This document shows positions 38,859 through 57,080 of a DNA stretch of 64,000 nt, piece after piece. Positions within the stretch are counted from its first letter, which is position 1; each line of letters opens with the position of its first letter. Made by a program: the position numbers and the translations under genes. The notes under the pieces were generated by a model. The model worked only from the letters and a program-made list of their open reading frames with translations, was not told the origin of the DNA and ran no database searches. The stretch comes from Pyrinomonadaceae bacterium. GTDB taxonomy: Bacteria > Acidobacteriota > Blastocatellia > Pyrinomonadales > Pyrinomonadaceae. Where the stretch lies: the NCBI GenBank assembly GCA_014380365.1, contig JACMJZ010000029.1, positions 310,001 to 374,000 of the forward strand, given 5' to 3'.

Positions 38859-39520
38859 CCACAGGGCACGAAGGATTGGTGGACGGCTATGGTTTTGTTG
38901 AAGACGACAATCTGACTGCCGTAATTGTCCAAGTCACAGGTTTAGGCCTGGTAATGTAAGGAACCCCGGTTGAAACTACCCTAGGTGTTGGAACGCTTCA
39001 GCTATTGTTACTGACTTTATAACGTCGGCGAGTTACGAAGTAGAGCGGACAATACTGATGCGCCGACTCTAGCATGAAGCGTTAGTGCACGCAAGATTGA
39101 GTTTCCCCCTTTGCGAATGTCCCTCCGAGGGTGCCAGGGTGTGCAACTCATTCCACGAGACGTGCACGCTTGCAAGATATTTTGCAGAAAAAGAACGTAA
39201 AATTGGATTGCAACTCTGGATTTATGAAACTAGAATCAGCCCAGAGCAGTCTCCCACGGCAAACGTTTTATAAAAAAAGGAGTTTCCTAATTCTCACCAC
39301 CCTGCTCCCAGGTCTTCGCCGATCAAGCTTTGAGTTTCTTGGCGTCGTCGGCTGTAGAACCCTGCACTCTGTAGCGCATGGTTCGGTCAGCGAATCGTGG
39401 GACGCAAGGTGACTATCTCATGCCAGGTTTACGTAAGTTGTGAGCTTCCGGCGTCTGGCCTTATCGATTTTTGGTAACCCGTTTCTTATTTCAACTGTGT
39501 CCCGATTTTTCCACAGAGAA
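38859..39520. other. Long intergenic region with nested palindrome
   Basis: No supported gene. AACGCTTCA (38992-39000) pairs with TGAAGCGTT (39075-39083), and inside it GTCGGCG (39024-39030) pairs with CGCCGAC (39061-39067), giving a nested structure of about 92 bases. AAAAAAAGGAG near 39275 precedes no recognisable gene. The region presumably holds promoters for the Crp/Fnr and kinase genes. Confidence 0.45.
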
Positions 39521-42500
39521 ATGAGCCCGTCAGTGGATCAAGACATCAAGGATCGCAAACAGGTTGAAGACCCTCTCAACGAGGGTCGTCGAGCCATGCA
39601 GCGCCCCTCCAAGGAATCCAAAGTGATTGCCCAGCTCGCCATCAATCGAGACGTTACTGAACGGAGGCGTATCGAGGATCGCCTGAAACGGAGCGAGCGC
39701 CACCTTGCCGAAGCACAACATTTTGCCCACATTGGAAGTTGGCGTTGGGACATAAACAGCAGGATCCAAAATTGGTCTGACGAGCTCTATCGCATCTACG
39801 GACTCCAGCCCGAAAGCATCGAGTCAACGTACGAAGCTTTTCTTGAGCTTGTTCACCCTGACGACCGGAAGCGGATGTGCGATGTGGTCGAACATTCTGC
39901 TAAAACCCGTGAGCCTTTTGATCTCTACCTTCGCATTATCCGGCCCGATGGTGAAGAGCGAGTCATTCAGTCACGCGGCTGCAGTCTTTACGATGCCCAG
40001 GGAACGCCGATCGGAAGATATGGCACGGTGCAGGACGTTACGGAACACTGGCGGGCGCAGGAGGCGCTACGAATAGCAGAGCAAAAATACCGGCATATTT
40101 TCGAGAATGCCGGCGAGGGAATCTTTCAATCGACTCCGGAGGGAAGATACATTGCCGCTAACCCAGCCCTGGCACTCATGCACGGGTTTGCATCTCCAGA
40201 AGAGTTGATTCACAACCGCCAGGATATTTCGCGGCAAATTTACGTGGACCCAACCCGCCGTGAAGAGTTCAAGCGTCAGCTCGAGGAGCAGGGTGCAGTA
40301 CGCTGGTTTGAGCATCAGCTTTTTCGGAAAGACGGGAGCAAGATCTGGATCTCAGTAAACGCACGTGCAGTGCGCGACGAGCAAGGCGCGATTCAGTACT
40401 ACGAAGGTACTGCCCAGGACGTGACGCAGCGCAAACTTGTCGAAAAAGAACTTGGCCGTAGCGAAGAGATGTATCGCAGCCTGGTGGAACAAGCGCCGGA
40501 CGCGATCTTCATCGCGTCTCCGAACTTGCATTTCATTGACCTGAACGCCCGCGCCTGCGAGCTGAGCGGATACACGAAAGACGAGATTCTGCAAATGTCC
40601 ATTCCGGATTTCATGCTGCCGGAAGACATTCTCGCTGCTCCGTTGAGATTGAAAGAAATGCAAGAAGGAAAGACCGCTATCGCTGAGCGAAGGCTCAGAA
40701 GAAAGGATGGAAAGCTGGTTCCGGTTGAAGTCAGTGCAAAGATTCTGAGCGACGGGCGGCTGCAGGCAATCGTCCGGGACATCACCGAGCGCAAGCAGGC
40801 GGAGGCGGCGCTACAAGAAAGCGAAGAGCGGTTTCGGCAATTATCCGAAGCCGCGTTTGAGGCGATTATCCTTCATGACAACGGAACGATTTTGGAAGTG
40901 AATCAATCCTTCTGTCGGATGTACGGCTATGAACGCACGGAAGTGATCGGCAAGTCTATACTAGACTTGGCTCTGCCCCAGTTCCGCGAACTGTTCCGGC
41001 AAAAGCTGCGGTCAGGAGATACAAATCCTTATGAGAGTCCCGTGTTACGTAAGGATGGGACGGTATTCAACGCGGAATTGGCCGGGAAGCCCATTAATTA
41101 TCGGGGTCGAGTTGTCCGGGTCGGGGCAATCCGTGACATCACCGAACAAAAACGGAACGAGCGGCGTCAGGCTGCGCAATACGGCGTCACGCGGGTGCTG
41201 GCTGAGTCGGCTACGCTCGCCGAAGCCACACCGCAATTACTGCGGGTCATCTGCGAGAGTCTGCGTTGGAAAATGGGCGAATTCTGGCGTGTATGCGACG
41301 GCACAAACCTCCTTCGCTGTGTCGAAACATGGCATGTGCCTGGACTTGATGCAACCGCATTCATTGAAGCTTCTCGCCAAACTGAGTTAGCTCCAGGCGT
41401 TGGCTTGCCGGGTCGCGTCTGGCAAAGCGGTCAGCCTGCATGGATTCCCGATGTAATGACGGATCCGCGCTTTGCGCGCGCGGCGATAGCCGCCAAAGTT
41501 GGGCTGCGTGGCGCCGTGGCTTTCCCAATCTTGCTGGGAAACCACACTCCGGGCGTAATGCTGTTCTTCAGCCGCCGGACCCCTGAAGTTGATGAAGACC
41601 TGCTCAAGATAATGTCGGCCATCAGTAGCCAGATCGGTCAGTTCACCGAACGCAAGCGGGCCGAGACCAGAAGTGCGGCTTTCGCTAATCTCGCGCAAAA
41701 CCTGAGCGGAGCTATGACCCCACTCGAGGCGGGTCAGATCATTGCTCGGACCGCGCAGAATCTGTTTGGCTGGGATTCATGCACTCTCGATCTTTATGAC
41801 GCCGAGCATGATGTAATCCATCCAATGTTAAATGTGGATACGATAGGCGGCAAGCAAGTGGATGTTACACCCTTCATTTCGGGCCGGAAACCAACCCCGA
41901 GAGGCAGGCGAGTTATCGATCATGGGCCTGAGCTGATACTCCGCAAAGAACCCTTCGTTTTTGACAAGGATGCCGTTCCCTTCGGCGACGTGTCACGCCC
42001 CTCAGCGGCAATAATGACCGCTCCAATTCGCCATGCCTCGCGAGTCATTGGCGTCCTTTCTATTTATACCTACAGTCCGCTCGTTTATGACGATGTGGCA
42101 CTGGGCGATCTACAGGCGCTTGCGGACCATTGCGGCGAAGCCTTGAATCGACTCCAGGCTGAAGAACAACTACGGGAAAGCGAGGAGCGCTACCGCGACC
42201 TCGTTGAGAACAGTCGTGAGCTTATATGCACTCACGATTTGGAGGGATTGATACTTTCGGCAAATCGCGCCGCCACAGAGGTTTTGGGCCACGATCGGGA
42301 GGACTACTTCGGAAAGAAAAACTTGCGCGAGATTCTGACGCCCGAAGCCCTTGAGGGTTTTGAAGATTACCTGGCCAGAATCCGCAATGACGGGGTAGCA
42401 ACTGGGATCATGCTGGTACAGACAAGCTCTGGGGAGCACCGTATCTGGGAATACTACAACACGTTGCGCACGGAGGGAGTGGCCGCGCCGATCGTACGCG

Positions 42501-43624
42501 GCATGGCGCGTGACATTACGGATCGCAAACGGGCTGAAGAGGCGTTGCGCGAAAGTGAAGAGCGCTATCGTGAGTTGTTTGAGAACGCGAAAGACGGCAC
42601 TTTCGTTCACGATCTCAGGGGCAGATATACGTCGGTGAATCGCGCCGCCGAGAGACTGCTTGGCTATGCAAGGGCCGAGATTCTCGGAAAGGAGGTTATC
42701 CACTTTTTTCCTCCGGAACAGATAGAGCACATTCGCGAGTGCGCTCGCAAGCTGGTCGACGAAGGAGAAACCGCGTACGAATCTGAATTGATCACGAAGG
42801 ATGGCCGCCGCGTAGCCGTCCACGTTGAGAGTCACCTGATCTTTGAAAACGGCGTACCCATCGGAGTGCAGGGCACAGCCAGGGACATCACTGAGCGAAA
42901 AGCTGCCGAAGAGAAACTCACGGCGAACAGCGCGCAGTTGCGTGCTCTTTCAGCTCGGCTGCAATCCGCCAGAGAAGAGGAAGGGACTCGCATCGCACGT
43001 GAAATTCACGATGAACTCGGCTCAGTGTTGACCAGTTTGAAGTGGGATTTGGAAGGCACGGAAAAGATACTGGCTAGTCCGATCGGCGCCTCAGAATCCG
43101 CAGCCCTTCGTGAAAAATTGCAGGCTGTGATGAAGCTGGCTGATGTGGCTGCCAGCGCCATCCGGCGCATCGCCTCTGAATTGCGACCCAGCATTCTGGA
43201 CGACCTTGGCCTGGTGGCTGCAATTGAATGGCAGGCCCAGCAGTTTCAAGCCCGCACTGGAATCGTCTGCATTTGCGATTGTTCTCTGGAAAAGGTTGAG
43301 CTGAACGAAGCCCAATCAACCGCGGTCTTCCGCATCCTCCAGGAAGCTCTGACCAACGTCCTGCGGCATGCGCACGCAACCAGGGTTGATATCAAGATCA
43401 ACAAGGAGCACGGTTATCTAGCCCTATCGATCAGCGACAACGGCAAAGGAATCACCGAAAGCGAGAAGTGCGAACAGGGATCATTGGGAATACTGGGAAT
43501 GCGCGAACGGGCTCACCTCGTAGGTGGTGACATCGATCTTCAGGGAATCGAGGGAAAGGGAACGCTGGTTACTGTAAGAGCGCCCATCTCGGGACAGGAG
43601 AGGGTTTTGAGAATGACGCGCTAA
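39521..43624 (+). CDS. Soluble multi-PAS/GAF sensor histidine kinase (NarX-type)
   Basis: 1367 residues from ATG 39521; an in-frame GTG at 39440 is the alternative. No membrane segments. Order: a partial PAS remnant, four PAS units (each ending VTERK-like), two GAF domains (about 540-870), two more PAS, then HisKA_3 with the phosphorylatable His near 1162 in IAREIHDELGS, the RPSILDDLGLV loop, N box ILQEALTNVLRHAHA and G boxes DNGKGI and GILGMRERAHLVGG. Such kinases sense cytoplasmic redox or small ligands and phosphorylate LuxR-type regulators; the next gene encodes one 28 bases away. Confidence 0.9.
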   Translation: MSPSVDQDIKDRKQVEDPLNEGRRAMQRPSKESKVIAQLAINRDVTERRRIEDRLKRSERHLAEAQHFAHIGSWRWDINSRIQNWSDELYRIYGLQPESIESTYEAFLELVHPDDRKRMCDVVEHSAKTREPFDLYLRIIRPDGEERVIQSRGCSLYDAQGTPIGRYGTVQDVTEHWRAQEALRIAEQKYRHIFENAGEGIFQSTPEGRYIAANPALALMHGFASPEELIHNRQDISRQIYVDPTRREEFKRQLEEQGAVRWFEHQLFRKDGSKIWISVNARAVRDEQGAIQYYEGTAQDVTQRKLVEKELGRSEEMYRSLVEQAPDAIFIASPNLHFIDLNARACELSGYTKDEILQMSIPDFMLPEDILAAPLRLKEMQEGKTAIAERRLRRKDGKLVPVEVSAKILSDGRLQAIVRDITERKQAEAALQESEERFRQLSEAAFEAIILHDNGTILEVNQSFCRMYGYERTEVIGKSILDLALPQFRELFRQKLRSGDTNPYESPVLRKDGTVFNAELAGKPINYRGRVVRVGAIRDITEQKRNERRQAAQYGVTRVLAESATLAEATPQLLRVICESLRWKMGEFWRVCDGTNLLRCVETWHVPGLDATAFIEASRQTELAPGVGLPGRVWQSGQPAWIPDVMTDPRFARAAIAAKVGLRGAVAFPILLGNHTPGVMLFFSRRTPEVDEDLLKIMSAISSQIGQFTERKRAETRSAAFANLAQNLSGAMTPLEAGQIIARTAQNLFGWDSCTLDLYDAEHDVIHPMLNVDTIGGKQVDVTPFISGRKPTPRGRRVIDHGPELILRKEPFVFDKDAVPFGDVSRPSAAIMTAPIRHASRVIGVLSIYTYSPLVYDDVALGDLQALADHCGEALNRLQAEEQLRESEERYRDLVENSRELICTHDLEGLILSANRAATEVLGHDREDYFGKKNLREILTPEALEGFEDYLARIRNDGVATGIMLVQTSSGEHRIWEYYNTLRTEGVAAPIVRGMARDITDRKRAEEALRESEERYRELFENAKDGTFVHDLRGRYTSVNRAAERLLGYARAEILGKEVIHFFPPEQIEHIRECARKLVDEGETAYESELITKDGRRVAVHVESHLIFENGVPIGVQGTARDITERKAAEEKLTANSAQLRALSARLQSAREEEGTRIAREIHDELGSVLTSLKWDLEGTEKILASPIGASESAALREKLQAVMKLADVAASAIRRIASELRPSILDDLGLVAAIEWQAQQFQARTGIVCICDCSLEKVELNEAQSTAVFRILQEALTNVLRHAHATRVDIKINKEHGYLALSISDNGKGITESEKCEQGSLGILGMRERAHLVGGDIDLQGIEGKGTLVTVRAPISGQERVLRMTR

Positions 43625-43652
43625 AGGCCCAGCCAGTTTCAAGGCGCACCCG

Positions 43653-44297
43653 ATGAAGAGACCAATGAAACGAATCCTCATCATTGACGATTATGCAGTT
43701 GTGCGGGACGGGGTGAAGAAGATTTTCGATGAGCAACCCAACGCGGTTGTTTTCGGAGAAGCGAGCACCGCAAGCGAAGCCCTTCAGCTCGTTCGCGACC
43801 AGAATTGGGACCTGGCCGTGCTGGATCTTTCTCTGGGCAACCAGAGCGGACTGGACGTCTTGAAAGAGTTTAAGCAAATTCGTCCAAGGCTTCCGGTGCT
43901 TATTCTCAGCATGCATTCGGAGGAAGAATATGCTCGCCGCGCCTTCAAAGCGGGTGCCTCAGGCTACATTACAAAAGACAGTTCCAGTGCAGAGTTGGCC
44001 AAGGCAGTAAACAAAGTCGCGGCCGGAGGTAGGTATATCACTTCCGCACTCGCGGAACGACTCGTGTTTGATCTCGGGCGAAAGTCCGATCTGCCGCCTC
44101 ATAAGAGCCTTTCTGATCGAGAGTTTGAGGTAATGCGCTTAATAGCTTCCGGACAAACTGTTACTGAGATCGCTGAGTTGCTCTCGCTCAGCGACAAGAC
44201 AATCAGCACTTATCGCGCCAGGCTATTGGAAAAGATGGGAATGAAGACAAACGCGGAGCTGACTCGCTATGCCATCCGCAACAAACTCGTGGATTGA
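43653..44297 (+). CDS. NarL/FixJ-type response regulator
   Basis: 214 residues. REC: IDD acidic pair at 11-12, phosphoacceptor in AVLDLSLGNQSG, LSMHSEEEYARRAFKAGASGYITKDSS with the switch Ser and conserved Lys. The LuxR helix-turn-helix is about 150-210 (LSDREFEVMRLIASGQTVTEIAELLSLSDKTISTYRARLLEKM). All phosphorylation residues are present. It is the natural partner of the preceding NarX-type kinase. Confidence 0.93.
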   Translation: MKRPMKRILIIDDYAVVRDGVKKIFDEQPNAVVFGEASTASEALQLVRDQNWDLAVLDLSLGNQSGLDVLKEFKQIRPRLPVLILSMHSEEEYARRAFKAGASGYITKDSSSAELAKAVNKVAAGGRYITSALAERLVFDLGRKSDLPPHKSLSDREFEVMRLIASGQTVTEIAELLSLSDKTISTYRARLLEKMGMKTNAELTRYAIRNKLVD

Positions 44298-44732
44298 ACG
44301 GAATCAATTCCCTCCCTTGCTACAAATCATGCGCGACAAACCCGGGACACCTGAATCGTTTCTTAATCTCAGTTTCCGATGCAGTTCAGTGAGAAACCCC
44401 ACAGGAGTTTTGAACTTGTATAGCATACGAACTGCAACTTCGTTGCGGCGTAAGGCAACCCCTACACAATTGCTGGCAAGGCTCCGACAGTAAAATCAAA
44501 GCTAAGCCGATACTCGTATCTGGATCTGATCTGTATGCTCTAAGCTTTGCGGTTGATTCGATTTGGGAGTTCGAGAGAGTTGGGCGCGACAGCTGTTTCA
44601 CTATCAGGTTTTCCCTGATTGCAAGCTCACGGGTAACACGGTAGTTTCCCAGCGTTGCAACAGGTCTGGTAAGAAGGTCAAGACTGATCTCCCCTGGTTT
44701 TGGGCCCGCCTGTTTCCTCACTGCTGAATGCA
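44298..44732. other. Intergenic region, no gene seen
   Basis: 435 bases between two response-regulator genes without a coding pattern on either strand. No perfect -10/-35 pair or strong hairpin was found by eye. Confidence 0.4.
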
Positions 44733-45428
44733 ATGCCGAAACCTTATCCTTCATCCGGTGCAAAACCCGTAAAGGCAGACTCTGCGCCAAAACCGATCAG
44801 AATCTTGCTATCGGGCCGGCATGCGCTGGTGCGTGCTGGTATTCGTGCCCTGCTGGAGAGAATCGACGAAGTCGAAGTTGCGGAGGCGGCGGACCGCCAA
44901 CAAATCTTTGCTGCAATTACGGAATTCAACCCTCACATTGTATTGCTCGATCTTCCAACTCCGGGCTTGAGCGGGCTCGATCTATTGAAAGAAATTGTTG
45001 AGAAATTCCCCTCGACACGAGTGATTGCCCTCTCACAACAGGAAACCGAAGAACAAGCTGTTCAGGCACTGCGATCGGGAGCGGCGGGGTTTATCGCCAA
45101 AAGTGCGGCCAGTACTGAGCTCGAGTTGGGAGTTAGGGCTGTTGTCAGAGGAGAAAGGTACCTTGCATCAGAAATATCAAAACAAGCGGTACTAAAATAC
45201 CTTGAAGACCCGCGTTCCTTTTTTCCCGAACTCACGCCGCGCCAGTATCAAGTGCTGAAGATGATTGCCGAAGGTCACGCCACCAAGGAGATCGCGCGAC
45301 GGTTAACCATCAGCGTCAAGACGGTCGAGACGCATCGCGCCCAATTAATGGACCGGCTGAATATTCATGACATAGCCGGTCTGGTTCGTTACGCGTTGCG
45401 CATGGGTCTGGTGAAACTTGATGAATGA
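44733..45428 (+). CDS. LuxR-type regulator with degenerate receiver
   Basis: 231 residues from ATG 44733. The REC domain begins IRILLSGRHALVRAGIRALLE; the usual ADDH is replaced by SGRH, so the acidic pair that binds Mg2+ is missing. The phosphoacceptor Asp remains in VLLDLPTPGLSG, as do the switch Ser (IALSQQ) and Lys (FIAKS). The LuxR helix-turn-helix is intact (LTPRQYQVLKMIAEGHATKEIARRLTISVKTVETHRAQLM). Without the acidic pocket it is probably not phosphorylated in the normal way and may work by expression level, dimerisation or ligand binding. Confidence 0.88.
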   Translation: MPKPYPSSGAKPVKADSAPKPIRILLSGRHALVRAGIRALLERIDEVEVAEAADRQQIFAAITEFNPHIVLLDLPTPGLSGLDLLKEIVEKFPSTRVIALSQQETEEQAVQALRSGAAGFIAKSAASTELELGVRAVVRGERYLASEISKQAVLKYLEDPRSFFPELTPRQYQVLKMIAEGHATKEIARRLTISVKTVETHRAQLMDRLNIHDIAGLVRYALRMGLVKLDE

Positions 45429-45821
45429 AACGACGCACTCCGTTGAGAGACTTTTGATGCAACGAATCTTTTTGTCGGAAACTCTCTCTCCTCTGTAAGA
45501 GATCTCCTCACAGCCGCCTCAGGAACTTCCCGATTGTGCTGTACGTCACATAGCCATAGACTGCCCCTCAGGATTACCCCTTATTTGCTCTACGCGTTAA
45601 CGTCCCCAAACGCGACTCAAGTACTCGGCCATCCAAAAGATCTTTTTCCTGGCGTTAGTAGAAGAACATACAGGTGTCTGACACGTAAGTTTCGGAACGC
45701 TCGTCCCAAAAGCATTTCGGCGAGCGACGCGTAGACGACGAGAGCGGACTCTACGGCGGATCTCCCTTTCGCAGTCAATTGCTCAACCAGCATCTGCGAC
45801 AGGGAAACACACAGGCCGATC
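45429..45821. other. Intergenic region, no gene seen
   Basis: 393 bases upstream of the AAA-REC gene; no frame with coding character on either strand. No clear promoter or terminator could be assigned. Confidence 0.4.
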
Positions 45822-47264
45822 ATGGAACACTTCATACTCCCACCGCAGCCAACTTCGCGATCGCCACTTGGCGCACAGCCATCCGATCTGGTGACGTTGT
45901 TGTCGCAGAAGGTTGTCGGCCAATCAGCCGCCACCAAAGCTATCGTTCCTTATGTCTACATGTATCAGTCGGGCCTCGCGCCTGAAGGGAGACCTGCGGG
46001 CGTCTTCTTGCTGCTGGGTCCCACGGGTACAGGTAAGACCAAGACGATAGAGGCGATCGCTGAGCTCTTGCACGGGGATGAAAAAAAGATTCTCAAGATC
46101 GATTGTGGCGAATTTCAGATGGAGCATGAAACAGCCAAACTGGTTGGCGCTCCTCCCGGCTACCTGGGTCATCGCGAAACCATTCCCCTGCTCACGCAAC
46201 AGCAGTTGACGGAAGTTACCAGCCTGGACTGTGACCTGGCGCTGGTGCTGTTCGACGAAATCGAGAAGGCCGCCCATTCAATCACCAAGCTGTTGCTGGG
46301 CATTCTCGACAAAGGCATCCTTCGTCTTGGCGATAACACGAGCGTCAATTTCGAAAAAAGTCTGATCTTTTTCACAAGCAACCTCGGCTCACGGGAGATG
46401 ATGAAAGAGATCAACCCCAACATTGGGTTTCAGAGCGCTACAGCCAGATCACAAATAGATCTCACCACCAGACTGGAAAGTATCGCGCTGGGGGCGGTGA
46501 GAAAGCGCTTCTCGCCTGAGTTTGTTAATCGCATCGATGCAGTAGTCACCTATAACCCACTCGATGCGGGAGCCATCGAAATAATTCTCGATCACGACCT
46601 CCGGGCGCTACAGGATCACGTCAACCTGCGGCTCGGTGAGCGGTATTTCTCAATTGAGGTAACCCCGGAAGCGAAACGATTCCTGCTCCAAAGGGGAGTC
46701 AGCCAGGAGTACGGCGCCCGGGAACTCAAGCGCACGATTCACCGTCAGCTTACGCAACCCCTGGCGACTATGGTGACCCGTGGTGAGATTCTGCCGGGTG
46801 CGCAGGTAAGCATTTCAGTAACGGATGCCGGCGAAGCTCTGTCCATAGTGTGCATAGGCGGTGCCACGAAGGTAGTACGGCAAACCACCACAGTTCTTAT
46901 AGTCGATGACAACCACGACCTATTGTTTTTTCTAGCTGGGCAGATGAAAGAGGAAGGCTGGGAAATTCTGATCGCGGAAAACGGCGCGCAGGCTCGTCTC
47001 GCCTTTTATCAGCGCCGGCCGGATGTTGTGCTGCTCGATTACTGTCTCGGTGACGACGATGGCTTCAAGCTGGGTTTGGAGTTTCACGCGCAAGCTCCGC
47101 TGACCCACATCATTTTGATGACCGGCGGCGGGTTCCCCGACGAGTTGCAGTCTGTCTGGGATGGGCAAGGTCTCCCGGTGTTATACAAGCCCTTTCTGGC
47201 CCAGGACGTTTTAAACCTGGTGAGGGGACGCATAAGTAAGGCCGCTGCAACTGCTGCGGCTTAG
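45822..47264 (+). CDS. Single-ring Clp-type AAA+ ATPase fused to a receiver domain
   Basis: 480 residues. Residues 1-345 match the D2 module of Hsp100/Clp unfoldases: VVGQSAA entry, Walker A GPTGTGKT (66-73), pore loop GAPPGYLG (109-116), Walker B LVLFDE (141-146), sensor 1 TSN (185-187), Arg finger in FSPEFVNRID (R237), sensor 2 GAR (298-300) and the D2-small helix. IGF at 201-203 occupies the ClpP-docking loop position. There is no Clp_N domain and no D1. Residues 357-475 are a complete REC: VDD (361-363), phosphoacceptor D406, T434, K456. I know no characterised protein with this order. Inference: a phosphorylation-controlled unfoldase, perhaps for ClpP, in a two-component cluster. Confidence 0.9.
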   Translation: MEHFILPPQPTSRSPLGAQPSDLVTLLSQKVVGQSAATKAIVPYVYMYQSGLAPEGRPAGVFLLLGPTGTGKTKTIEAIAELLHGDEKKILKIDCGEFQMEHETAKLVGAPPGYLGHRETIPLLTQQQLTEVTSLDCDLALVLFDEIEKAAHSITKLLLGILDKGILRLGDNTSVNFEKSLIFFTSNLGSREMMKEINPNIGFQSATARSQIDLTTRLESIALGAVRKRFSPEFVNRIDAVVTYNPLDAGAIEIILDHDLRALQDHVNLRLGERYFSIEVTPEAKRFLLQRGVSQEYGARELKRTIHRQLTQPLATMVTRGEILPGAQVSISVTDAGEALSIVCIGGATKVVRQTTTVLIVDDNHDLLFFLAGQMKEEGWEILIAENGAQARLAFYQRRPDVVLLDYCLGDDDGFKLGLEFHAQAPLTHIILMTGGGFPDELQSVWDGQGLPVLYKPFLAQDVLNLVRGRISKAAATAAA

Positions 47265-47314
47265 GGTAAAGGAGAACTGCCGCCGTTGCTGAGCAGTGAC
47301 GAATCAGATTGCAG

Positions 47315-47392
47315 AGATCGCGTGCCCTCCTGAGAGGGACGGTGCGCGCGAGTGGAGAAGGACGCCGCCTTGGGGGCGAGAGCGGCGTCCTT
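47315..47392 (+). ncRNA. Two-hairpin structured element, copy A
   Basis: Starts AGATCGCGTG like copy B. A small stem (CCCTC/GAGGG around CTGA, flanked by CGCG/CGCG) is followed by a strong stem: AAGGACGCCGC (47358-47368) with GCGGCGTCCTT (47382-47392). Strand and transcription are assumed; a dispersed palindromic repeat is the alternative. Confidence 0.45.
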
Positions 47393-47512
47393 ATCCCAAA
47401 CACTAAACCGGGGAGGCAGAATCGATAATCCGCGTGTCGCCGTCCCAGCGACACCGCGCGAAGTCAGGAGGATCTTGGCCGGCGGCCAAGGTCTTACTAG
47501 AGGAGGCGGATC

Positions 47513-47731
47513 ATGACGACTAACTATGCCAGCGAAACACTGACCAAAGCCATCAAGAACCATTTGTGGAAAGTGGATGCTATTCCGCCAACAGCAGAGG
47601 CGACAGAATTGGCCCGTGAACTTGCACAGGTTTGTCTGACCGAATTAAACACGGTGGGATTGGGTAGTGAGACGGTCGAGGACCTCTTCGCACCCTTCGC
47701 AACCAAGACGAAGGCTCGAGGTGCTCATTAA
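47513..47731 (+). CDS. Small hypothetical protein
   Basis: 72 residues, well translated by its signal (AGAGGAGG about seven bases before the ATG). Mostly helical (SETLTKAIKNHLWKVDAI; ATELARELAQVCLTELNTVGL) with a C-terminal segment TVEDLFAPFATKTKA. Not recognised. It lies alone between the two copies of the structured element and between the AAA-REC and kinase genes; a small accessory or regulatory protein for one of them is possible. Confidence 0.55.
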   Translation: MTTNYASETLTKAIKNHLWKVDAIPPTAEATELARELAQVCLTELNTVGLGSETVEDLFAPFATKTKARGAH

Positions 47732-47872
47732 AAACAAGAGCGGGAGGCGGGGGTTCCGCAAACGCAACGTAGCATTCTTTTCAAGATGTGGATCAGTAGT
47801 CCTTTAGGAGAGTCTGTGATGGAGGGAGGAATCCAGCAGGGACTCTCCCGCTAGGACGACACAATTTTTTCC

Positions 47873-47953
47873 AGATCGCGTGATGCCTTTACGTAAGGGG
47901 ACACGCGCCACGAAGAAGGACGCTGCCTTGGGGCGAAAGCAGCGTCCTTCTTC
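47873..47953 (+). ncRNA. Two-hairpin structured element, copy B
   Basis: Outer CGCGTG/CACGCG and inner CCTT/AAGG form the first stem; GAAGAAGGACGCTGC (47912-47926) pairs perfectly over 15 bases with GCAGCGTCCTTCTTC (47939-47953), followed by AGTTTTA. Relative to copy A, C-G becomes T-A in the long stem and the inner small stem changes on both sides. It ends about 90 bases before the kinase start and could also terminate transcription. Confidence 0.45.
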
Positions 47954-48043
47954 AGTTTTATCTCGCCAGTACGCGTTGCGACCAGATGGAAGAGATGAAG
48001 CGCTCGCAGGTGGAATATCAACCGGGGACTTTAGGCAGCATTT

Positions 48044-50692
48044 ATGGCGACGCGCCGTTTCTCTTTGGCCAATCTTTCGCTCAAGCACCGCTTGCCGTTG
48101 CTGATTGGTTCACTGCTGCTCGGCATCATCATAGCCTCGACCCTGGCATCTTATCGCGGAGTAAGACAATCGGCGCTCGAAGTCGGCCGGGAGCGGTTGA
48201 AGAACCTCACGCAACAGTTGGCAACCACGTCGCATCAGTCGACGGTGCTCATGCTCACTAAGACACAGACTGCTGCTAACAACTCGGCGATTCATGCGTT
48301 TCTCCAGTCCCCTTCACCTGTGACGCGATCCGAAGCTGCCGCGATTCTCCAGCAATTCACCGTGACTCACGATCCGAATAGTTTGCGAGTCGAATTATGG
48401 AACTCGAGCGCCACTATCGTTCTGATCGCGCCGGATGGCGTGTCACCAGAGATGGATGATTTGAACACTGAGTTCGCGCAATGCGCACGCGACCCGTTCA
48501 GGGCCGTAGGCGCACTTCGCCTCGTCAAAGAAATCCTCGTTTATCCGGCCCTGGCAGCGACGACAGATAAGGACGGAAAAGTGCTCGGTTATCTCGTCAG
48601 GTGGCGTCGGCTCTCGGTTACTCCTGACCCGCGTGGGCTGAGGGATTTGCTCGGTAGCGAAGCGACCCTTTACTTCGGCAACATTGAAGGCGACTTCTGG
48701 ACAGACCTGGTAAAACCCGTGTCCAGCCCCCCGTCGGGCTTCGGTTCAACTCTGGAACCGACGAATTACCTGCGAGACGGAAACTCAGTTATGGCTTTGG
48801 GGCGACCAATCAGGGGCACGCCGTTTTTCGTGGTAGTCGAATTTCCCGATCACGTCCTTCTGAGTGGGCCAAACAAGTTTCTTGGGCGCTTGTTAATTAT
48901 CGATGCCGTGTTACTGGCGTTTGGACTCCTCGGCGCCTTTACGCTGAGCCGCAGCATCACGGGGCCCCTTGATTTGCTGACCGGATCGGCGTCAAGAATT
49001 AGCGGCGGCGACTATTCCGGCATAGTTCAGATCCCCCGAAACGATGAACTCGGCGCGCTTGGCAACGCGTTTAATTCAATGGTGGCTGGAGTGCGCAGTT
49101 CACGGCGGAGTCTTGAAGAAAAGATTCAGGAACTCAAGCTGATGCAGGAGACGGCTTCGAAATTGGCGGCGATCGTGGAGTCGTCCCAGGATGCCATCAT
49201 CGGGAAAACTGGGGATGGCATTATTACCAGTTGGAATAAGAGCGCGGAAAGACTCTACGGCTATTCGGCCGAAGAAGTAGTAGGACGTTCGATCGCAGTT
49301 CTACTTTCACCAGACCTTGCGGACGAAATCGCCACGATTCTGAAGCGAGTCGGCCAAGGCGAAAGTATTGATCATTTCGAAACTGACCGCATTACAAAGG
49401 ATGGGAGACAACTTTCGATCTCCCTGACCATCTCTCCAATCCGGGACGAGTCAGGTGCGATCATCGGTTCATCAACAATTGCGCGGGATATCACCAAGCA
49501 AAAGCGCTCGGACAAAGCGCTGCGTTCTTCAGAGATCCGCTACCGGCGGCTCTTTGAGTCTGCCAAGGACGGCATTCTAATTCTCGACGCTGAAAGCGGG
49601 CGGACGCTTGATGCGAACCCCTATTTTCTCGAAATGCTCGGTACTTCCAAAGAGAAACTCCTGGGCCAGGAACTCTGGGAGATGGGCCCTTTCAAAAACA
49701 TAGTCGCCTCAAAGATCGCCTTCGACGAACTACAGGAGCGAGGCTTCAAACGTTACGAAGACCTGCCGCTCGAAGATAGCGACGGGATTATCCGCAATGT
49801 GGAATTTGTAAGTAACAGTTATTTCTCGGGTGAACGGCGGGTAATCCAGTGCAACATCCGCGACATCACAGAGCGCAAAATGGCGGAAGAGGAATTGCGC
49901 CGAACGAACCAACGCCTTGAGGGAGCGCTTGCCGATCTTCTGACCAGGACGCAGGAGTTGGCGTCGATGACGCAACAGCTTTGGCAGGCCTCAAAACTCG
50001 CGACCATGGGTGAGTTAGCCGCCAGCGTCGCTCATGAGTTAAATAATCCGCTGGCGACAATCTCACTACACACTGAACTCATTGTTGGCCTACTGGCCAA
50101 CGACGATCCCAACCTTCAATCGTTGCGGGTGGTTGAGCAGGAAGTCGGACGCATGGCAACCCTGGTGGGCAATCTCTTGCAGTTCAGCCGGCGTAGTCAG
50201 AAGCAAATCTCTACCGTGGATCTTGGCGACGAGGTAACGAAATCACTCGACTTCATTCAATATCATTTGCGCAGCCACCGGATCGATATCGTGAACGATT
50301 GTGCGACTGTCCTTCCCAGTGTCCAGGCAGACCGGGAGCAGTTGCGCCAGGTCTTCCTGAATTTGATCACCAATGCCAGCGACGCAATGCCTGGGGGCGG
50401 AACGCTGACGGTTCGCAGCCGTGCGGGAGTGATGGCCGGCGGTCACGCGGCAGTCGTCATCGAATTCTCTGATACAGGCATCGGCGTTAAGACGGGCGAC
50501 TTGCCGAAGCTTTGGGAACCCTTTTTCACTACCAAGCCGGAAGGCAAAGGCACGGGACTCGGTTTAGCTATTTGCCGCCGCACGGTGGAGGATCACCGCG
50601 GAACAATCGTGATCGAAACGGAGCCGGGGAAAGGCACGACCGTGCGCATCACTTTACCGGCAACCGCCGAAGACTTCGAGGTAGCGGCGTGA
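48044..50692 (+). CDS. Membrane sensor histidine kinase (periplasmic domain-HAMP-PAS-PAS)
   Basis: 882 residues. Two membrane helices (PLLIGSLLLGIIIASTLA near 19-36; LLIIDAVLLAFGLLGAFTL near 285-303) flank a periplasmic sensor of about 250 residues. HAMP (SRSITGPLDLLTGSASRI), two PAS domains (about 370-490, 500-625), a HisKA with His near 663 in ASVAHELNNPLATI, and HATPase with N box NLITNASDAMPGG, G1 SDTGIG and G2 GTGLGLAI follow. The NtrB-like H box fits the NtrC-type regulator encoded three genes downstream. The next gene starts inside its stop (GTGA). Confidence 0.92.
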   Translation: MATRRFSLANLSLKHRLPLLIGSLLLGIIIASTLASYRGVRQSALEVGRERLKNLTQQLATTSHQSTVLMLTKTQTAANNSAIHAFLQSPSPVTRSEAAAILQQFTVTHDPNSLRVELWNSSATIVLIAPDGVSPEMDDLNTEFAQCARDPFRAVGALRLVKEILVYPALAATTDKDGKVLGYLVRWRRLSVTPDPRGLRDLLGSEATLYFGNIEGDFWTDLVKPVSSPPSGFGSTLEPTNYLRDGNSVMALGRPIRGTPFFVVVEFPDHVLLSGPNKFLGRLLIIDAVLLAFGLLGAFTLSRSITGPLDLLTGSASRISGGDYSGIVQIPRNDELGALGNAFNSMVAGVRSSRRSLEEKIQELKLMQETASKLAAIVESSQDAIIGKTGDGIITSWNKSAERLYGYSAEEVVGRSIAVLLSPDLADEIATILKRVGQGESIDHFETDRITKDGRQLSISLTISPIRDESGAIIGSSTIARDITKQKRSDKALRSSEIRYRRLFESAKDGILILDAESGRTLDANPYFLEMLGTSKEKLLGQELWEMGPFKNIVASKIAFDELQERGFKRYEDLPLEDSDGIIRNVEFVSNSYFSGERRVIQCNIRDITERKMAEEELRRTNQRLEGALADLLTRTQELASMTQQLWQASKLATMGELAASVAHELNNPLATISLHTELIVGLLANDDPNLQSLRVVEQEVGRMATLVGNLLQFSRRSQKQISTVDLGDEVTKSLDFIQYHLRSHRIDIVNDCATVLPSVQADREQLRQVFLNLITNASDAMPGGGTLTVRSRAGVMAGGHAAVVIEFSDTGIGVKTGDLPKLWEPFFTTKPEGKGTGLGLAICRRTVEDHRGTIVIETEPGKGTTVRITLPATAEDFEVAA

Positions 50693-53600
50693 GTAACCAG
50701 AGCCTGGAGCTAAAAGGAAAGGAAATGGTTACAACCAGCGCCGGGGCAAACACGCCGCTGGCAAAAATCCTGGTTGTAGACGACGAGCCAGAACTCAGAA
50801 GCGTTCTGGTTAAGTCACTTCAGAAGCATGGTTATGAAGTGGCCGGTGCTGGTTCCGGGCACGACGCGCTCACCAGGCTGCGAGAGCGAGATTTCGATCT
50901 GCTACTGACAGATTTAATGATGCCTGAAATGGATGGCATCGCTCTACTCAAGGCCGCTCTCGAAATCGATCCTCATCTCATCGGCATTATGCTGACAGGT
51001 CGGGGCACGATTCAGACCGCGGTTGATGCCATGCAAGTAGGCGCGTTTGACTACGTGCTTAAGCCTTTCCGGCTCCAGAATCTCCTGCCGGTCTTAACGC
51101 GGGCCCTCAACACGCGACAACTACGACTGGAAAATCTTCAACTTCGCGAGACGGTGGCGATTCATGAGCTGAGTCAGACGATTGCCTTCACGCTTGACCC
51201 GCAAACGGTGATGAGCAAGCTAACCGAAGCCGCCTTGCTGCAAAGTGAAGCCGACGAAGTCTCCGTTCTCTTGCCAACCGCTGACGGCAAGGAGTTTTAC
51301 GTCGCCGCCGCCCGCGGCGAACACACCGCACGCCTGCTGGGCGAGCGCATACCGTTCGATCGCGGCATCGCCAGTTGGGTAGCGCGGGAAAGGAAGGCGG
51401 TGATACTCAATGGCGAGGTCAAAGACGACCGATTCGAAGCCCTATGGCCGCGGCCGGCTATCAGTTCTTCAGTCTCGGTGCCGATGGTGGTCGCCAATAA
51501 ACTCATCGGGGTTCTCAACCTTAATGTCATTAATCGCCACCGTCCGTTCGCCCTGGGCCAGATGAAGGCTTTGAGCATTTTGGCGGGCACGGCGGCCGCC
51601 GCTCTCGAAAGCGCCTCCCTCTACACGCAGGTGCGGACGACTGAAGAAAAGTATCGAGCCATTTTCGAGAATGCCACTGAGGGTCTGTTTCAAACGACTG
51701 CCGGTGGGCGTCTCCTCACTGCGAATCCCGCACTCGCTCGAATTCTAGGTTACGACTCACCTGAAGACATGATCGCGATCGTCACCGATCTCGCGAGTCA
51801 GATCTATGTCAATCCCGAAGATCGCGTAGACGCCAGCCGGCTACAGGAAGAATCCGGCGTCCTTCTGGGATTTGAAATGGAAGCCTACCGGAAAGACCGT
51901 GAAAAAATCTGGGTGAGTGTGAACCGGCGAGCGGTCCGCAATCCAGACGGCGCATTGCTTTACTTCGAAGGCTCTGTCGAAGACATCACCGCTCGCCGGC
52001 AGGTCGAAGAGGAAAAGCGCAAAATCAGGCAACAGTATGAATCGTTAGTGCACACGATTGACGGCATTGTCTGGGAGCTTGACGTAAATACTCTTACTTT
52101 TACCTTCATCAGCAAACAGTCGGAAAAAATACTCGGCTACACCCCGGAGCAGTGGGTTAATGATCCGAGTTTCTGGGAAAACCATTTGCACCCGGACGAC
52201 CGCGCCTGGGCCCTTGAGTTCTGTCGCGTCGCCTTAACCAAAAGAGAAGATCACGAGTTCGACTATCGAATGATTGCGGCGGATGGTCATACAGTCTGGT
52301 TGCGCGACATCGTGGTGGTGGACAAGACGAATCGTGAGCACCCTCTGTTGCGCGGAGTCATGGTCGACATAACTGAGCGCAAGCGCGTTGAAGAAGCGTT
52401 GACTGAAAGCGAGCGACGCAAAGACGCCATTCTCAAGTCAGCACTGGATTGCGTTATCACCATCGATCATGAGGGGAAGATCGTCGACTTTAATCCTGCC
52501 GCCGAACGCCAGTTTGGGTACACAAGCGAGCACGCGATGGGAAAGAAGATGCAGGATTTGATCGTTCCTCCTTCACTGAGGGCCAGTCACAAAGTCGGGT
52601 TCGCCAGATACCTGGCAACAGGGTCTTCCTCAATGTTGGGCACGCGAATTGAAACTGCGGCGATGCGCTCTGATGGCAGCGAGTTTCCGATTGAGTTGAC
52701 CGTGACCGCAATCGGCAAGCTCCCGCGACCGATGTTCACCGCATTTCTTCGTGATTTAACCGAGCGCAACCGGGCTGAGGCTGAGCTACGAAAAAGCGAG
52801 GAACGCTACCGGGACCTGGTTGAAAATGCCCACGACCTGATCTACGAGCACGACTTGAAGGGCAGGTACACGGCCACCAACAAGGCAGGGGAACGGATGA
52901 CTGGCTACTCCCTCGAAGAAAGCCTTGAGTTAAATCTCGCGCAAACCGTGGCCCCGGAGTGTCTGGAGAAGGCGAAGGAGATGCTGCAGCGCAAACTCGC
53001 CGGTGAGAGCGTAACGGCATATGAGCTGGTCATCCTCGGAAAAGACGGCCATCGCGTCCCAGTCGAAGTGAATACCAGACTGGTTCTAAAAGATGGCGTT
53101 CCAGTCGGCGTGCAAGGTATCGCTCGCGATATCACCGAGCGCAAACGCGTCGAAGAAACGCAAGCCCGCCGCGCAGATCATGCGTTATTCCGGGCTGATG
53201 TCAGCGCTGCGTTAACCATGGGCAACGCGCCATTAAAGGCAACTCTCGAAGCCTGCGCCGACGCAATGGTCCATCATCTCGACGCAGCCTTTGCCCGTAT
53301 CTGGACTCTTAATCCCGAAGAAGCGATGTTGGAGTTGCAGGCCAGTGCTGGAATGTATACCCATATTGATGGGCCCCACTCCAGGGTTCCGGTGGGCTCG
53401 TTCAAGATTGGCAAGATCGCCGAGGAGCGCGCGCCCCATATCACAAACGAGGTACAGACTGATCCGCGAGTGGGCGACAAGGAATGGGCCCGCCGGGAGG
53501 GAATGGTGGCCTTCGCGGGATACCCATTGCTCCTGGAGAATCGGGTGCTGGGCGTCATGGCTATGTTTGCGCGCGAGCAACTTGCCGAAGACACACTCGA

Positions 53601-55251
53601 CGCGCTCGCGGCGGTTTCCGATCTCATCTCCCAGGGCATCGAACGCAGGCGCACCGAAGAAGAGTTGCGCGAAAACGAGGAGCGATACCGGATGCTCTTC
53701 GACAGCAACCCGCAACCAATGTGGGTCTACGATCTGGAAACGCTGGCGTTCCTCGCCGTTAACGGGTCAGCCGTGCGCCACTACGGCTATTCTCAGGAAG
53801 AGTTTCTCGGCATGACGATCGAGGACATTCGTCCCGCAGCAGAGATACCCTCCCTTCACGCTTCCCTTGCCGATAGTTTGGAGGAGGTTGGCTTGCCGCG
53901 CGCATGGAGGCATGTCAAGAAGGATGGCACCCTCATAGAGGTGGAAATTACTTCTCACTTGCTAGTGTTTGACGGTCGGCGAGCTGAGCTGATCCTCGCC
54001 CACGATATTACCGAACGCCAGCGCCTCGAGGCCGCACTGCTGGCGAGCCAGGCACAGCTCCGACAGTCCCAAAAGCTTGAAGCGATCGGGCAACTGGCTG
54101 GCGGCGTTGCTCACGATTTTAATAACCTGCTGACCGCAATCAACGGTTACAGCGCCCTGGCGCTGCGGCGACTTGGTGACGATCACCCCATAGCGTCTTA
54201 CCTGGAAGAGATCAAGAAAGCCGGAGATCGCGCCGCCAATCTCACCCGGCAACTGCTGGCGTTTGGACGCAAGCAGCTTCTCCAGCCGCTTTCACTCAAT
54301 CTCAACGACATTGTCCTGGATATGAACAAGATGCTGAAACGGCTAATCGGTGAAAACATCGACCTGGTGGCCAAGCTGAATCCGAGTCTCAAACAAATCA
54401 AGGCCGATCCCGGTCAGGTGGAGCAGGTGTTGGTCAACCTCGTGGTAAACGCCCGAGACGCCATGCCCAGAGGCGGCACCTTAACAATCGAGACGGCGAA
54501 TGCCCAACTCGACGGCGTGTACGCAAGTAAACATGTTGGGGTAATCCCGGGTAGCTACATCATGTTGGTCGTGAGCGACACGGGGATGGGGATGGATCAG
54601 GAAACCCAGGCGCGCATGTTCGAACCCTTCTTCACCACCAAGGAGAAGGGCAAGGGCACGGGTCTGGGTCTGTCCACGGTTTACGGGATTGTCAGGCAAA
54701 GCGGTGGAAACGTTTGGGTGTATAGCGAGCTCAATCGAGGCACCAGCTTCAAGATTTTTCTGCCGCAGATTGACGGCGAGGACGGGGTAAACGGTGATTC
54801 AGTTTCAGTTTCAGGCACTGCGCGCGGGTCTGAGACTGTATTGCTGGTCGAAGACGAAGATATGGTGCGCAACCTGGCCACCGAGATACTGAAGGACAGC
54901 GGCTACACAGTTCTGGAAGCAAGCGGCGGCGAGGAAGCTATTGGACTGTGCCGGGAACACAGAGAACCAATACACCTTTTGATCACGGACGTCGTGATGC
55001 CCAGAATGAGTGGGAAGGATGTGGCCCAGCAACTCCAGATGATCCACCCTGAAACAAAAGTACTGTTCATGTCGGGTTATACAGACGAGGCCATCGTACA
55101 TCACGGCATTGTTGACGCCGATATCGCGTTTATTCAAAAGCCATTCTCGGAAAATGCCCTGGCTCTCAAAATCCGGGAAGTGTTGGACTCTGAAATGCCT
55201 CCGGGTGGGCTGGGCGAGATTCCGCCGAAGGGATTTAGCCTTCTGGCATAG
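50689..55251 (+). CDS. Hybrid histidine kinase REC-GAF-PAS4-GAF-PAS-kinase-REC
   Basis: 1520 residues from GTG 50689, which overlaps the preceding stop as GTGA and has GAGG upstream; ATG 50725 is the alternative. Order: REC (LVVDDEPELR, LLTDLMMPEMDG, KPF), GAF, four PAS units, second GAF (about 840-1000), one PAS, HisKA with His near 1141 in GGVAHDFNNLLT, HATPase (NLVVNARDAMPRGG, SDTGMGMD, GTGLGLST), and a C-terminal REC (VLLVEDEDMVR, LLITDVVMPRMSG, MSGYT, KPF). Both REC domains keep all catalytic residues. Soluble. Likely a phosphorelay hub working with the preceding membrane kinase. Confidence 0.92.
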   Translation: MSNQSLELKGKEMVTTSAGANTPLAKILVVDDEPELRSVLVKSLQKHGYEVAGAGSGHDALTRLRERDFDLLLTDLMMPEMDGIALLKAALEIDPHLIGIMLTGRGTIQTAVDAMQVGAFDYVLKPFRLQNLLPVLTRALNTRQLRLENLQLRETVAIHELSQTIAFTLDPQTVMSKLTEAALLQSEADEVSVLLPTADGKEFYVAAARGEHTARLLGERIPFDRGIASWVARERKAVILNGEVKDDRFEALWPRPAISSSVSVPMVVANKLIGVLNLNVINRHRPFALGQMKALSILAGTAAAALESASLYTQVRTTEEKYRAIFENATEGLFQTTAGGRLLTANPALARILGYDSPEDMIAIVTDLASQIYVNPEDRVDASRLQEESGVLLGFEMEAYRKDREKIWVSVNRRAVRNPDGALLYFEGSVEDITARRQVEEEKRKIRQQYESLVHTIDGIVWELDVNTLTFTFISKQSEKILGYTPEQWVNDPSFWENHLHPDDRAWALEFCRVALTKREDHEFDYRMIAADGHTVWLRDIVVVDKTNREHPLLRGVMVDITERKRVEEALTESERRKDAILKSALDCVITIDHEGKIVDFNPAAERQFGYTSEHAMGKKMQDLIVPPSLRASHKVGFARYLATGSSSMLGTRIETAAMRSDGSEFPIELTVTAIGKLPRPMFTAFLRDLTERNRAEAELRKSEERYRDLVENAHDLIYEHDLKGRYTATNKAGERMTGYSLEESLELNLAQTVAPECLEKAKEMLQRKLAGESVTAYELVILGKDGHRVPVEVNTRLVLKDGVPVGVQGIARDITERKRVEETQARRADHALFRADVSAALTMGNAPLKATLEACADAMVHHLDAAFARIWTLNPEEAMLELQASAGMYTHIDGPHSRVPVGSFKIGKIAEERAPHITNEVQTDPRVGDKEWARREGMVAFAGYPLLLENRVLGVMAMFAREQLAEDTLDALAAVSDLISQGIERRRTEEELRENEERYRMLFDSNPQPMWVYDLETLAFLAVNGSAVRHYGYSQEEFLGMTIEDIRPAAEIPSLHASLADSLEEVGLPRAWRHVKKDGTLIEVEITSHLLVFDGRRAELILAHDITERQRLEAALLASQAQLRQSQKLEAIGQLAGGVAHDFNNLLTAINGYSALALRRLGDDHPIASYLEEIKKAGDRAANLTRQLLAFGRKQLLQPLSLNLNDIVLDMNKMLKRLIGENIDLVAKLNPSLKQIKADPGQVEQVLVNLVVNARDAMPRGGTLTIETANAQLDGVYASKHVGVIPGSYIMLVVSDTGMGMDQETQARMFEPFFTTKEKGKGTGLGLSTVYGIVRQSGGNVWVYSELNRGTSFKIFLPQIDGEDGVNGDSVSVSGTARGSETVLLVEDEDMVRNLATEILKDSGYTVLEASGGEEAIGLCREHREPIHLLITDVVMPRMSGKDVAQQLQMIHPETKVLFMSGYTDEAIVHHGIVDADIAFIQKPFSENALALKIREVLDSEMPPGGLGEIPPKGFSLLA

Positions 55252-55259
55252 GCTTGTAA

Positions 55260-57044
55260 ATGGAAAACAAGGCTCAAGGTTTGAAGAAGCGGTCTAGCAT
55301 CCTGATCATCGACGACGAGGAACAGGTGCGCTGCCTGCTCGGAAACATATTGGCGGTCGCCCATGAGTGCACCTTTGCCAGTTCGGCTGAAGAGGCAATG
55401 CGGGTACTAAAGGCCATCAAGTTTGACCTGGTGATTAGCGACATAAACATGGGCGGCGTAAGCGGGTTGGATCTGGTTCCATACGTCTTAGAAGAAAGTC
55501 CGGAAACCGTGGTGGTGATGATTAGTGGCCAGCAATCAATCGACGCTGCCATCCAGGCAATGCGAGCCGGCGCGTTTGATTACATTACGAAACCGTTTGG
55601 TCTCCTTCACGTCGAAGCCGCAGTCACACGTGCCCTCGCCCATCAGCAACTTCTGGAAGACAGAAAGTATTACGAAAGCCATTTACAGGACCTCGTACGC
55701 CAACGCACTGCCGAAGTTGAGCGGCTCGCTTATTTCGATACGTTGACCGATTTGCCAAACCGCGTGCTTTTCGAAGACCGATTAACAGAAGCCTTAAAGC
55801 GGGCGCAACGCGACAACCGTATGCTCGGAGTATCGATGCTGCGGGTAGATCGCTTCAAGAAGATGAACGACGCTTTCGGGCATATCCTCGGAGATCGACT
55901 GCTCCGCGACATCGCCCAAAGAATTCAAACGGCGATTGGCGATCGGGGAACGCTCGCAAGATTCGAAGGCGATGAGTTTGCCCTTCTGCACGACGAAACC
56001 GACAGCTCCGAAAAGTTACTCGAGGCGCTTCGACACCTTAATCAGTCGTTACAGGTTCCCTTCGTTGTAGACGGCCATGAGCTCTTTACCACCGTCAGCC
56101 TCGGCATCAGCCTTTTCCCAACAGACGGTGAGACTCCTCAGGAGCTGCTGAAAAATGCAGGCGTCGCTTTAGATCGGGCCAAGAGCCTGGGAGGCAATAC
56201 CAGCCAATTTTATCGGGCGGACATGAACGCACGCGCACTCGAGCGGTTGACCATGGAAGCCGAACTGCGCCGCGCCATGGAAAATAAGGAGTTCATCCTT
56301 TACTACCAGCCGCAGGTTGATCTCGTCACCAATCGAATAGTGGGCGCTGAAGCGCTGATTCGTTGGCAACATCCGCAGCGTGGATTATTGCTCCCCGCCG
56401 ACTTCATATCGTTGGCTGAAGACTCCGGCTTGATATTACAGATGGGAGAGTGGGCCTTGCGAGCGGCCTGCACTCAAGCCACCTTATGGAGAAAAGATGG
56501 TCTCGAGGGACTCCGGGTATCCGTAAACGTTTCGCCGCATCAATTTCAACAGGACAATTTCGTGGAAACTGTGGCGCAGATACTGGCCGAAACCGCGGTT
56601 GACCCTGCGACCGTCGATCTGGAGATTACCGAGACTTCAATCATGGAGAATGCCGACCGGGTGGTGACGCGACTGTCGCAGCTCCAGCGGATGGGGCTGA
56701 GAATCGCTATCGATGATTTCGGTATTGGCTACTCGTCGTTGGGATATCTAAAGCGACTGCCAATCGACATGCTCAAGATCGACCGCACCTTCGTAAGTGA
56801 CGCTACTACCGATCCCGACGATGCGGCACTGGTGATGACGATCATAACCCTGGCGCACAATCTCAGGCTCAAAGTGATGGCCGAGGGAGTTGAGACTGAG
56901 GAGCAGTTGAGGTTTCTGCGGTTGCTCAAATGCGATGAAGGGCAGGGCTATTTCTTTGGCAAGCCCTGGCCGCCCGGCGAGTTCTTTACGAAAGCGATTG
57001 GCGCCGGCAGCACTGAGGCGCCGGTGCTTAGCTGCCATCCGTAA
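55260..57044 (+). CDS. REC-GGDEF-EAL cyclic di-GMP protein
   Basis: 594 residues. REC (IIDDEEQVR, LVISDINMGGVSG, KPF) is complete. The GGDEF domain (about 155-320) has RFEGDEF at the active site, so the first Gly is Glu, and YFDTLTDLPNR is normal; cyclase activity is doubtful, GTP binding may remain. The EAL domain (about 330-580) is complete: GAEALIRWQ, SVNVSPHQF, LEITETS, IDDFGIGYSSL, KIDRTFV and EGVETEEQ. Net output is probably c-di-GMP hydrolysis under phosphorelay control. Eight bases after the hybrid kinase, so co-transcribed. Confidence 0.92.
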   Translation: MENKAQGLKKRSSILIIDDEEQVRCLLGNILAVAHECTFASSAEEAMRVLKAIKFDLVISDINMGGVSGLDLVPYVLEESPETVVVMISGQQSIDAAIQAMRAGAFDYITKPFGLLHVEAAVTRALAHQQLLEDRKYYESHLQDLVRQRTAEVERLAYFDTLTDLPNRVLFEDRLTEALKRAQRDNRMLGVSMLRVDRFKKMNDAFGHILGDRLLRDIAQRIQTAIGDRGTLARFEGDEFALLHDETDSSEKLLEALRHLNQSLQVPFVVDGHELFTTVSLGISLFPTDGETPQELLKNAGVALDRAKSLGGNTSQFYRADMNARALERLTMEAELRRAMENKEFILYYQPQVDLVTNRIVGAEALIRWQHPQRGLLLPADFISLAEDSGLILQMGEWALRAACTQATLWRKDGLEGLRVSVNVSPHQFQQDNFVETVAQILAETAVDPATVDLEITETSIMENADRVVTRLSQLQRMGLRIAIDDFGIGYSSLGYLKRLPIDMLKIDRTFVSDATTDPDDAALVMTIITLAHNLRLKVMAEGVETEEQLRFLRLLKCDEGQGYFFGKPWPPGEFFTKAIGAGSTEAPVLSCHP

Positions 57045-57080
57045 CGGTTCAGGCAGGGGAAGTTTTCGAAGGCTAAAACT

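Follow-up and report, generated by a model that had tools for sequence, protein, structure and literature searches.

The protein described here joins a Clp-type unfolding motor to a response-regulator receiver in one chain. The motor is familiar and the receiver is familiar, but their union is not, and it has clearly been maintained in evolution. The family, conserved in Acidobacteriota and apparently undescribed, may allow a phosphate signal to control protein unfolding or destruction in the cell. The window, that is the whole stretch of DNA analysed (64,000 nt), covers positions 310,001-374,000 of the forward strand of contig JACMJZ010000029.1 from Pyrinomonadaceae bacterium assembly GCA_014380365.1, the host being a soil bacterium. 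The features of the gene are as follows; positions rest on the family alignment where no other source is named, and conservation counts out of 54 refer to the window protein plus the 53 listed D2-receiver homologues.

45822-47264, + strand: coding sequence of 480 aa with ATG start, Hsp100 D2 AAA+ module plus C-terminal receiver (ORF list, Pfam)
45900-46559, + strand: large AAA+ subdomain, residues 27-246 (Pfam AAA_2 at 57-240; D2 alignments begin at residue 24-27)
46017-46040, + strand: Walker A GPTGTGKT, residues 66-73, G66 and K72 invariant
46158-46169, + strand: pore loop GYLG, residues 113-116, 54/54
46242-46259, + strand: Walker B LVLFDE, residues 141-146, D145 and E146 54/54
46374-46382, + strand: sensor 1 TSN, residues 185-187
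46422-46430, + strand: ClpP-docking-type tripeptide IGF, residues 201-203, family consensus FGF (family and Clp alignments)
46530-46532, + strand: arginine finger R237 in NRID, 54/54
46563-46814, + strand: D2-small subdomain, residues 248-331 (Pfam ClpB_D2-small)
46719-46721, + strand: sensor 2 R300 in GAR, 54/54
46827-46892, + strand: variable linker, residues 336-357, mean pairwise identity 37%
46893-47222, + strand: receiver domain, residues 358-467 (Pfam Response_reg)
46905-46910, + strand: acidic pair D362 and D363, 54/54 and 53/54
47037-47039, + strand: putative phospho-acceptor D406, 54/54
47121-47123, + strand: switch hydroxyl T434 (T in 47, S in 3, A in 2, C in 2)
47187-47189, + strand: conserved K456, 53/53 of the sequences complete here

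The AAA+ module of D2 type is complete and single, spanning residues ~24-335 of the 480-aa protein, with the receiver following at 358-467 (Pfam E-values of 1.8e-32 for AAA_2, 8e-16 for ClpB_D2-small and 3.4e-13 for Response_reg). All traits of the Hsp100/Clp superfamily are present (Walker A and B, pore loop, arginine finger, sensor 2 and D2-small), as are the receiver residues D362, D363, D406, T434 and K456. Pfam finds in the ORF no Clp_N domain, no D1 or second AAA module, no ClpX-type N-terminal zinc-binding domain and no NtrC-type HTH. The original prediction of one D2-like module with a receiver, lacking Clp_N and D1, is therefore borne out on the full 480 residues, and the motifs it named are all complete at the positions it gave. 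Sigma54_activat scores only 27 bits, from general AAA similarity; AAA_2 and ClpB_D2-small score best. The NCBIfam ClpB and ClpA models match the D2 part only and stay far under their whole-protein cut-offs, and the PDB sequence matches of the 480-aa protein are the D2 modules of ClpC, ClpB and ClpA. In an AlphaFold model built from 64 sequences (mean pLDDT 91, pTM 0.74) both domains are well formed, the linker scores about 80 and residues 1-20 form a low-confidence tail. Structure comparison ranks ClpC chains first with Z of about 32-33, several of them from ClpC-ClpP complexes, and ClpB D2 slightly lower, Z gaps below 1 counting as ties.

The architecture search suggested with the original prediction turned up many more genes built in this way. 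Scanning 84,980 species genomes gave 136 relatives, and the best 80 of these contain 53 proteins with the receiver and 27 without, so that there are at least 53 D2-receiver homologues beyond the window protein, mostly from Bryobacterales, and at least 27 close receiver-less relatives. An assembly artefact or a chance fusion is ruled out by these 53 genes, 50 of which come from records with names other than Blastocatellia or Pyrinomonadaceae; chance is also excluded by the presence of G202, F203 and D406 in 54/54 of the D2-receiver proteins. The fusion is rare in the host class (4/162 genomes), and a phylum sample of 396 genomes holds four complete fusions plus two near relatives lacking the receiver, at E <= 1e-92. 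Most genomes of the class also carry a member of a remoter single-D2 family without receiver (~45% identity, ~400 aa); the host is among them, and its second single-D2 gene likewise has no receiver. The fusion thus belongs to a wider set of Clp-like ATPases with a single D2. One genome carries both fused and receiver-less forms. Of the fused or sister loci, two bear the labels Nevskia and Acidimicrobiia, and these may be mislabelled MAGs. No Clp/Hsp100-receiver fusion is described in the open-access papers or solved structures searched, in agreement with the earlier remark that no characterised protein of this architecture was known.

A plasmid-borne fusion was considered and rejected: 91 plasmid records match at <60% identity and none spans 80% of the query, the best matches being ordinary ClpB/Clp subunits at 34-39% identity. 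On viral contigs, none of the 80 loci kept covers the receiver, and some bear single-D2 genes. One of these IMG/VR 'viral' contigs (L148) has, upstream of its single-D2 gene, an infA at 4189-4404 that is 86% identical to Bryobacterales IF-1; with an infA of bacterial type, this part of the contig, at least, may come from a bacterium.

The fusion shares with ClpC and ClpA the D2 fold (Z about 33 to ClpC), the pore loop, the arginine finger, sensor 2 and a hydrophobic-G-F/L loop at the ClpP-docking position. In contrast to them it lacks an N-domain, D1 and an M-domain, bears a C-terminal receiver and is ~7 residues longer in the stretch from pore loop to Walker B (HRETxPxL...). Like ClpX it has a docking loop and would form one AAA+ ring; unlike ClpX it has no zinc-binding N-domain, profile and structure both assign its AAA module to the ClpB/ClpC D2 type, and a receiver is added. 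Bacterial ClpB is 36-38% identical to it in the D2 sequence, but has D1 and an M-domain and no GF loop, where the fusion has a single module with a GF loop. NtrC-type regulators also place a receiver on an AAA+ ring ATPase; theirs is N-terminal, joined to a sigma-54 activator AAA+ of a different AAA clade and a DNA-binding domain. ClpI of Actinomycetota (PMC10149685) is likewise a non-canonical Clp class set by sequence and judged by an LGF-type loop, but has two AAA modules, an N- and an M-domain and no receiver.

The loop at residues 201-203 was originally predicted to lie where ClpA, ClpC and ClpX have their ClpP-docking tripeptide and ClpB has none. Alignment confirms this placement: IGF aligns with LGF of the host ClpC and IGL of E. 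coli ClpA, and neither host nor E. coli ClpB has such a motif at the loop position. Across the 54 D2-receiver proteins, in which Walker A and B, pore loop, sensor 1, arginine finger and sensor 2 are essentially invariant, the loop reads [FI]-G-F. G202 and F203 occur in all 54, so the conservation on which the original prediction had staked itself holds for the GF pair. Ahead of this pair stands F in 50 proteins and I in 4, making FGF the family consensus and the IGF of the window protein a minority form. Receiver-less sisters have F-G-[FY] here (27/27), and in the broader single-D2 family all 28 have G-F, preceded by I in 27 of them. A GF-type loop is a marker that sets ClpP partners apart from ClpB in the ClpI study (PMC10149685). 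In the host genome ClpC has LGF, ClpX has LGF in its own loop and ClpB has none, the distribution to be expected of a marker of ClpP partners. It is noted that a third Hsp100 of the host (L005:1408-3708, G000 C2) keeps an LGF docking loop and has GIVG for GYVG as its pore loop. The host has one ClpP gene, inside a tig-clpP-clpX-lon cluster, and a ClpP gene is present in 10/10 genomes checked. In one genome a second ClpP lies 5 kb from a broad-family D2 gene; orientation and the genes in between give no support for an operon of the two.

We propose that the fusion is an unfoldase with one ring that works with ClpP, and that its built-in receiver adjusts how the ring assembles, hydrolyses ATP or docks on ClpP, with a kinase that is probably distant, an account that we hold to be evenly poised between right and wrong. 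That the phosphorylated built-in receiver directly gates assembly or ClpP docking, giving a one-chain signal-controlled protease motor in Acidobacteriota, is advanced more tentatively, at a little below even confidence. We infer a hexamer, a partnership with ClpP, phosphorylation and the direction of its switch, and substrates. Six D2 modules would form the ring and thread proteins through the GYLG pore loops, a ring chemistry that follows from the family. The [FI]GF loops would dock this ring on ClpP, to judge from their position, and threaded substrates would be degraded. A histidine kinase, whose gene probably lies elsewhere, would phosphorylate D406, and the phosphorylated receiver would alter ring assembly, ATPase activity or ClpP docking. 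The fusion would then be a response regulator with unfolding or degradation as its output instead of DNA binding.

Support for receiver control comes from the response regulators that already govern ClpXP, RssB (PMC7226468) and CpdR (PMC11519897), through which the two-component control of Clp proteolysis known so far runs. In these, too, the phosphorylation state of a receiver can control Clp proteolysis, but they are separate adaptor proteins acting on ClpXP, whereas the receiver of the fusion is covalently joined to the AAA module. Phosphorylation of RssB lowers the apparent Km of sigma S turnover about threefold (PMC7226468), and the unphosphorylated form of CpdR is associated with active ClpXP (PMC11519897), so in the fusion control could have either sign. 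If the proposal is true, a receiver on an unfoldase would link a sensor kinase directly to protein destruction, and it would offer a handle on how a receiver gates a ring motor. Several points stand against it. The FGF consensus is unlike the IGF, LGF, VGF or IGL of known ClpP partners. No clpP adjoins the fusion gene, and there is no conserved kinase partner. Three positions ahead of K456, 52/53 sequences have V, I or L in place of the usual aromatic switch residue, so that the receiver does not have to signal by T-Y coupling of the usual kind. Four proteins have lost the T434 hydroxyl (two with A, two with C), and an acidic-pair residue is missing from one.

The fusion could instead be a remodelling chaperone or disaggregase independent of ClpP, a receiver-controlled single-D2 ring like mitochondrial CLPB (SKD3), with the GF loop serving another partner or the ring itself; we consider this rather unlikely. 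In the same alignment its D2 is nearer to the host ClpB D2 (38%) than to host ClpC (32%) or E. coli ClpA (32%), and the FGF consensus is atypical. Mitochondrial CLPB is a disaggregase with a single AAA ring, according to PMC9934407 and to PDB entries. The single D2-type ring is shown for SKD3 and would be shared by the fusion, but SKD3 has ankyrin repeats and no receiver. The loop itself argues the other way, being longer than that of ClpB and keeping G and F in all 54 proteins, with several of the residues around them variable, and ClpB members have no GF loop.

The D2-small side of Hsp100 rings lies away from substrate entry. Because the receiver follows D2-small, it would sit toward the ClpP side or the rim rather than at substrate entry, which would favour control of docking or assembly over substrate delivery. 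This placement, together with the lack of any substrate-binding domain after the receiver, speaks against a receiver that serves for recruitment or localisation, as an attached CpdR- or RssB-like adaptor supplying the ring with substrates or sites, and not as a motor switch. We regard that arrangement as improbable, although stand-alone receiver adaptors do bring substrates to ClpXP and localise it by phosphorylation state (PMC7226468, PMC11519897), and although the receiver is less conserved than the AAA module in the fused proteins (mean identity 66% vs 77%) and hangs on a variable linker, as would be expected for a loosely attached domain.

Purifying selection acts on the receiver: nine of the 13 disjoint pairs have a dN/dS of 0.02-0.13, much as in the AAA module, and the remaining four have 0.24-0.47. 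A receiver that is only structural or phosphorylation-independent, tolerated on a housekeeping unfoldase, would fit the receiver-less relatives at the same infA-linked locus and the key positions altered in L109, L111, L112 and L114, but it is very unlikely in view of D406 in 54/54, K456 in 53/53, the low dN/dS over most pairs and the retention of the receiver in homologues as low as 52% identity among the matches listed. In those four proteins T434 is changed to A or C, or one acidic-pair D to S, and they are possibly phosphorylation-independent lineages.

In a tree of the D2 module only, all 54 fused proteins fall into a single clade (SH-aLRT 99, quick method) that lies within the receiver-less relatives, and a single change accounts for the receiver label. 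With the outgroup used, this is most simply one gain of the receiver, most likely by an unfoldase that already worked without it; as the outgroup branches are long, the root and gain over loss are likely, not proven. The window protein groups with three other Blastocatellia proteins within the mainly Bryobacterales clade, which, together with the rarity of the fusion in the class, suggests that its lineage acquired the fusion by horizontal transfer, differential loss being the alternative.

Neighbouring genes of the homologue loci were called by codon-scored gene calling. In Bryobacterales the gene infA (translation factor IF-1) lies one or two genes upstream in 33/54 fused and 21/27 receiver-less loci. 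This common linkage indicates that both forms share one locus in many genomes, where the receiver-less sisters provide a natural before/after comparison. A cold-shock protein gene is nearby in 29 fused loci, usually just ahead of infA (often cspA-infA). The resulting cspA-infA-D2 order resembles E. coli cspD-clpS-clpA plus infA; orthology is not claimed, as orientation differs.

The original prediction that a neighbouring kinase could phosphorylate the receiver did not hold for the family. The window gene stands alone, with gaps of 393 bp upstream and 779 bp downstream, in no obvious operon with kinases, and no sigma-70-like promoter was scored at the gaps flanking it. Two kinase queries, non-exhaustive, place a histidine kinase within 7 genes in 7/54 fused loci. 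Among the matches listed, a kinase lies directly downstream only in the window, at 48044-50692, and in L065 and L066, all three from Blastocatellia, and no conserved kinase neighbour occurs in Bryobacterales loci or elsewhere outside these three. A neighbouring kinase is therefore rejected as conserved family partner and is lineage-specific at best, a possible partner in the three Blastocatellia loci. It should be mentioned that the window is dense in signalling genes at 39440-58529, with multi-PAS kinases, two LuxR-type regulators, a receiver-GGDEF-EAL protein and an NtrC-type regulator. The gene that follows the fusion in eight Bryobacterales loci codes for a 252-aa protein resembling a degenerate receiver, with a weak DUF3052 match below cut-off (e.g. 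L097:9421-10179). A Cas6-like RAMP gene (PF10040) on the opposite strand is found in 21 loci, usually three genes upstream of the fusion, as at L118:5250-6122 (-).
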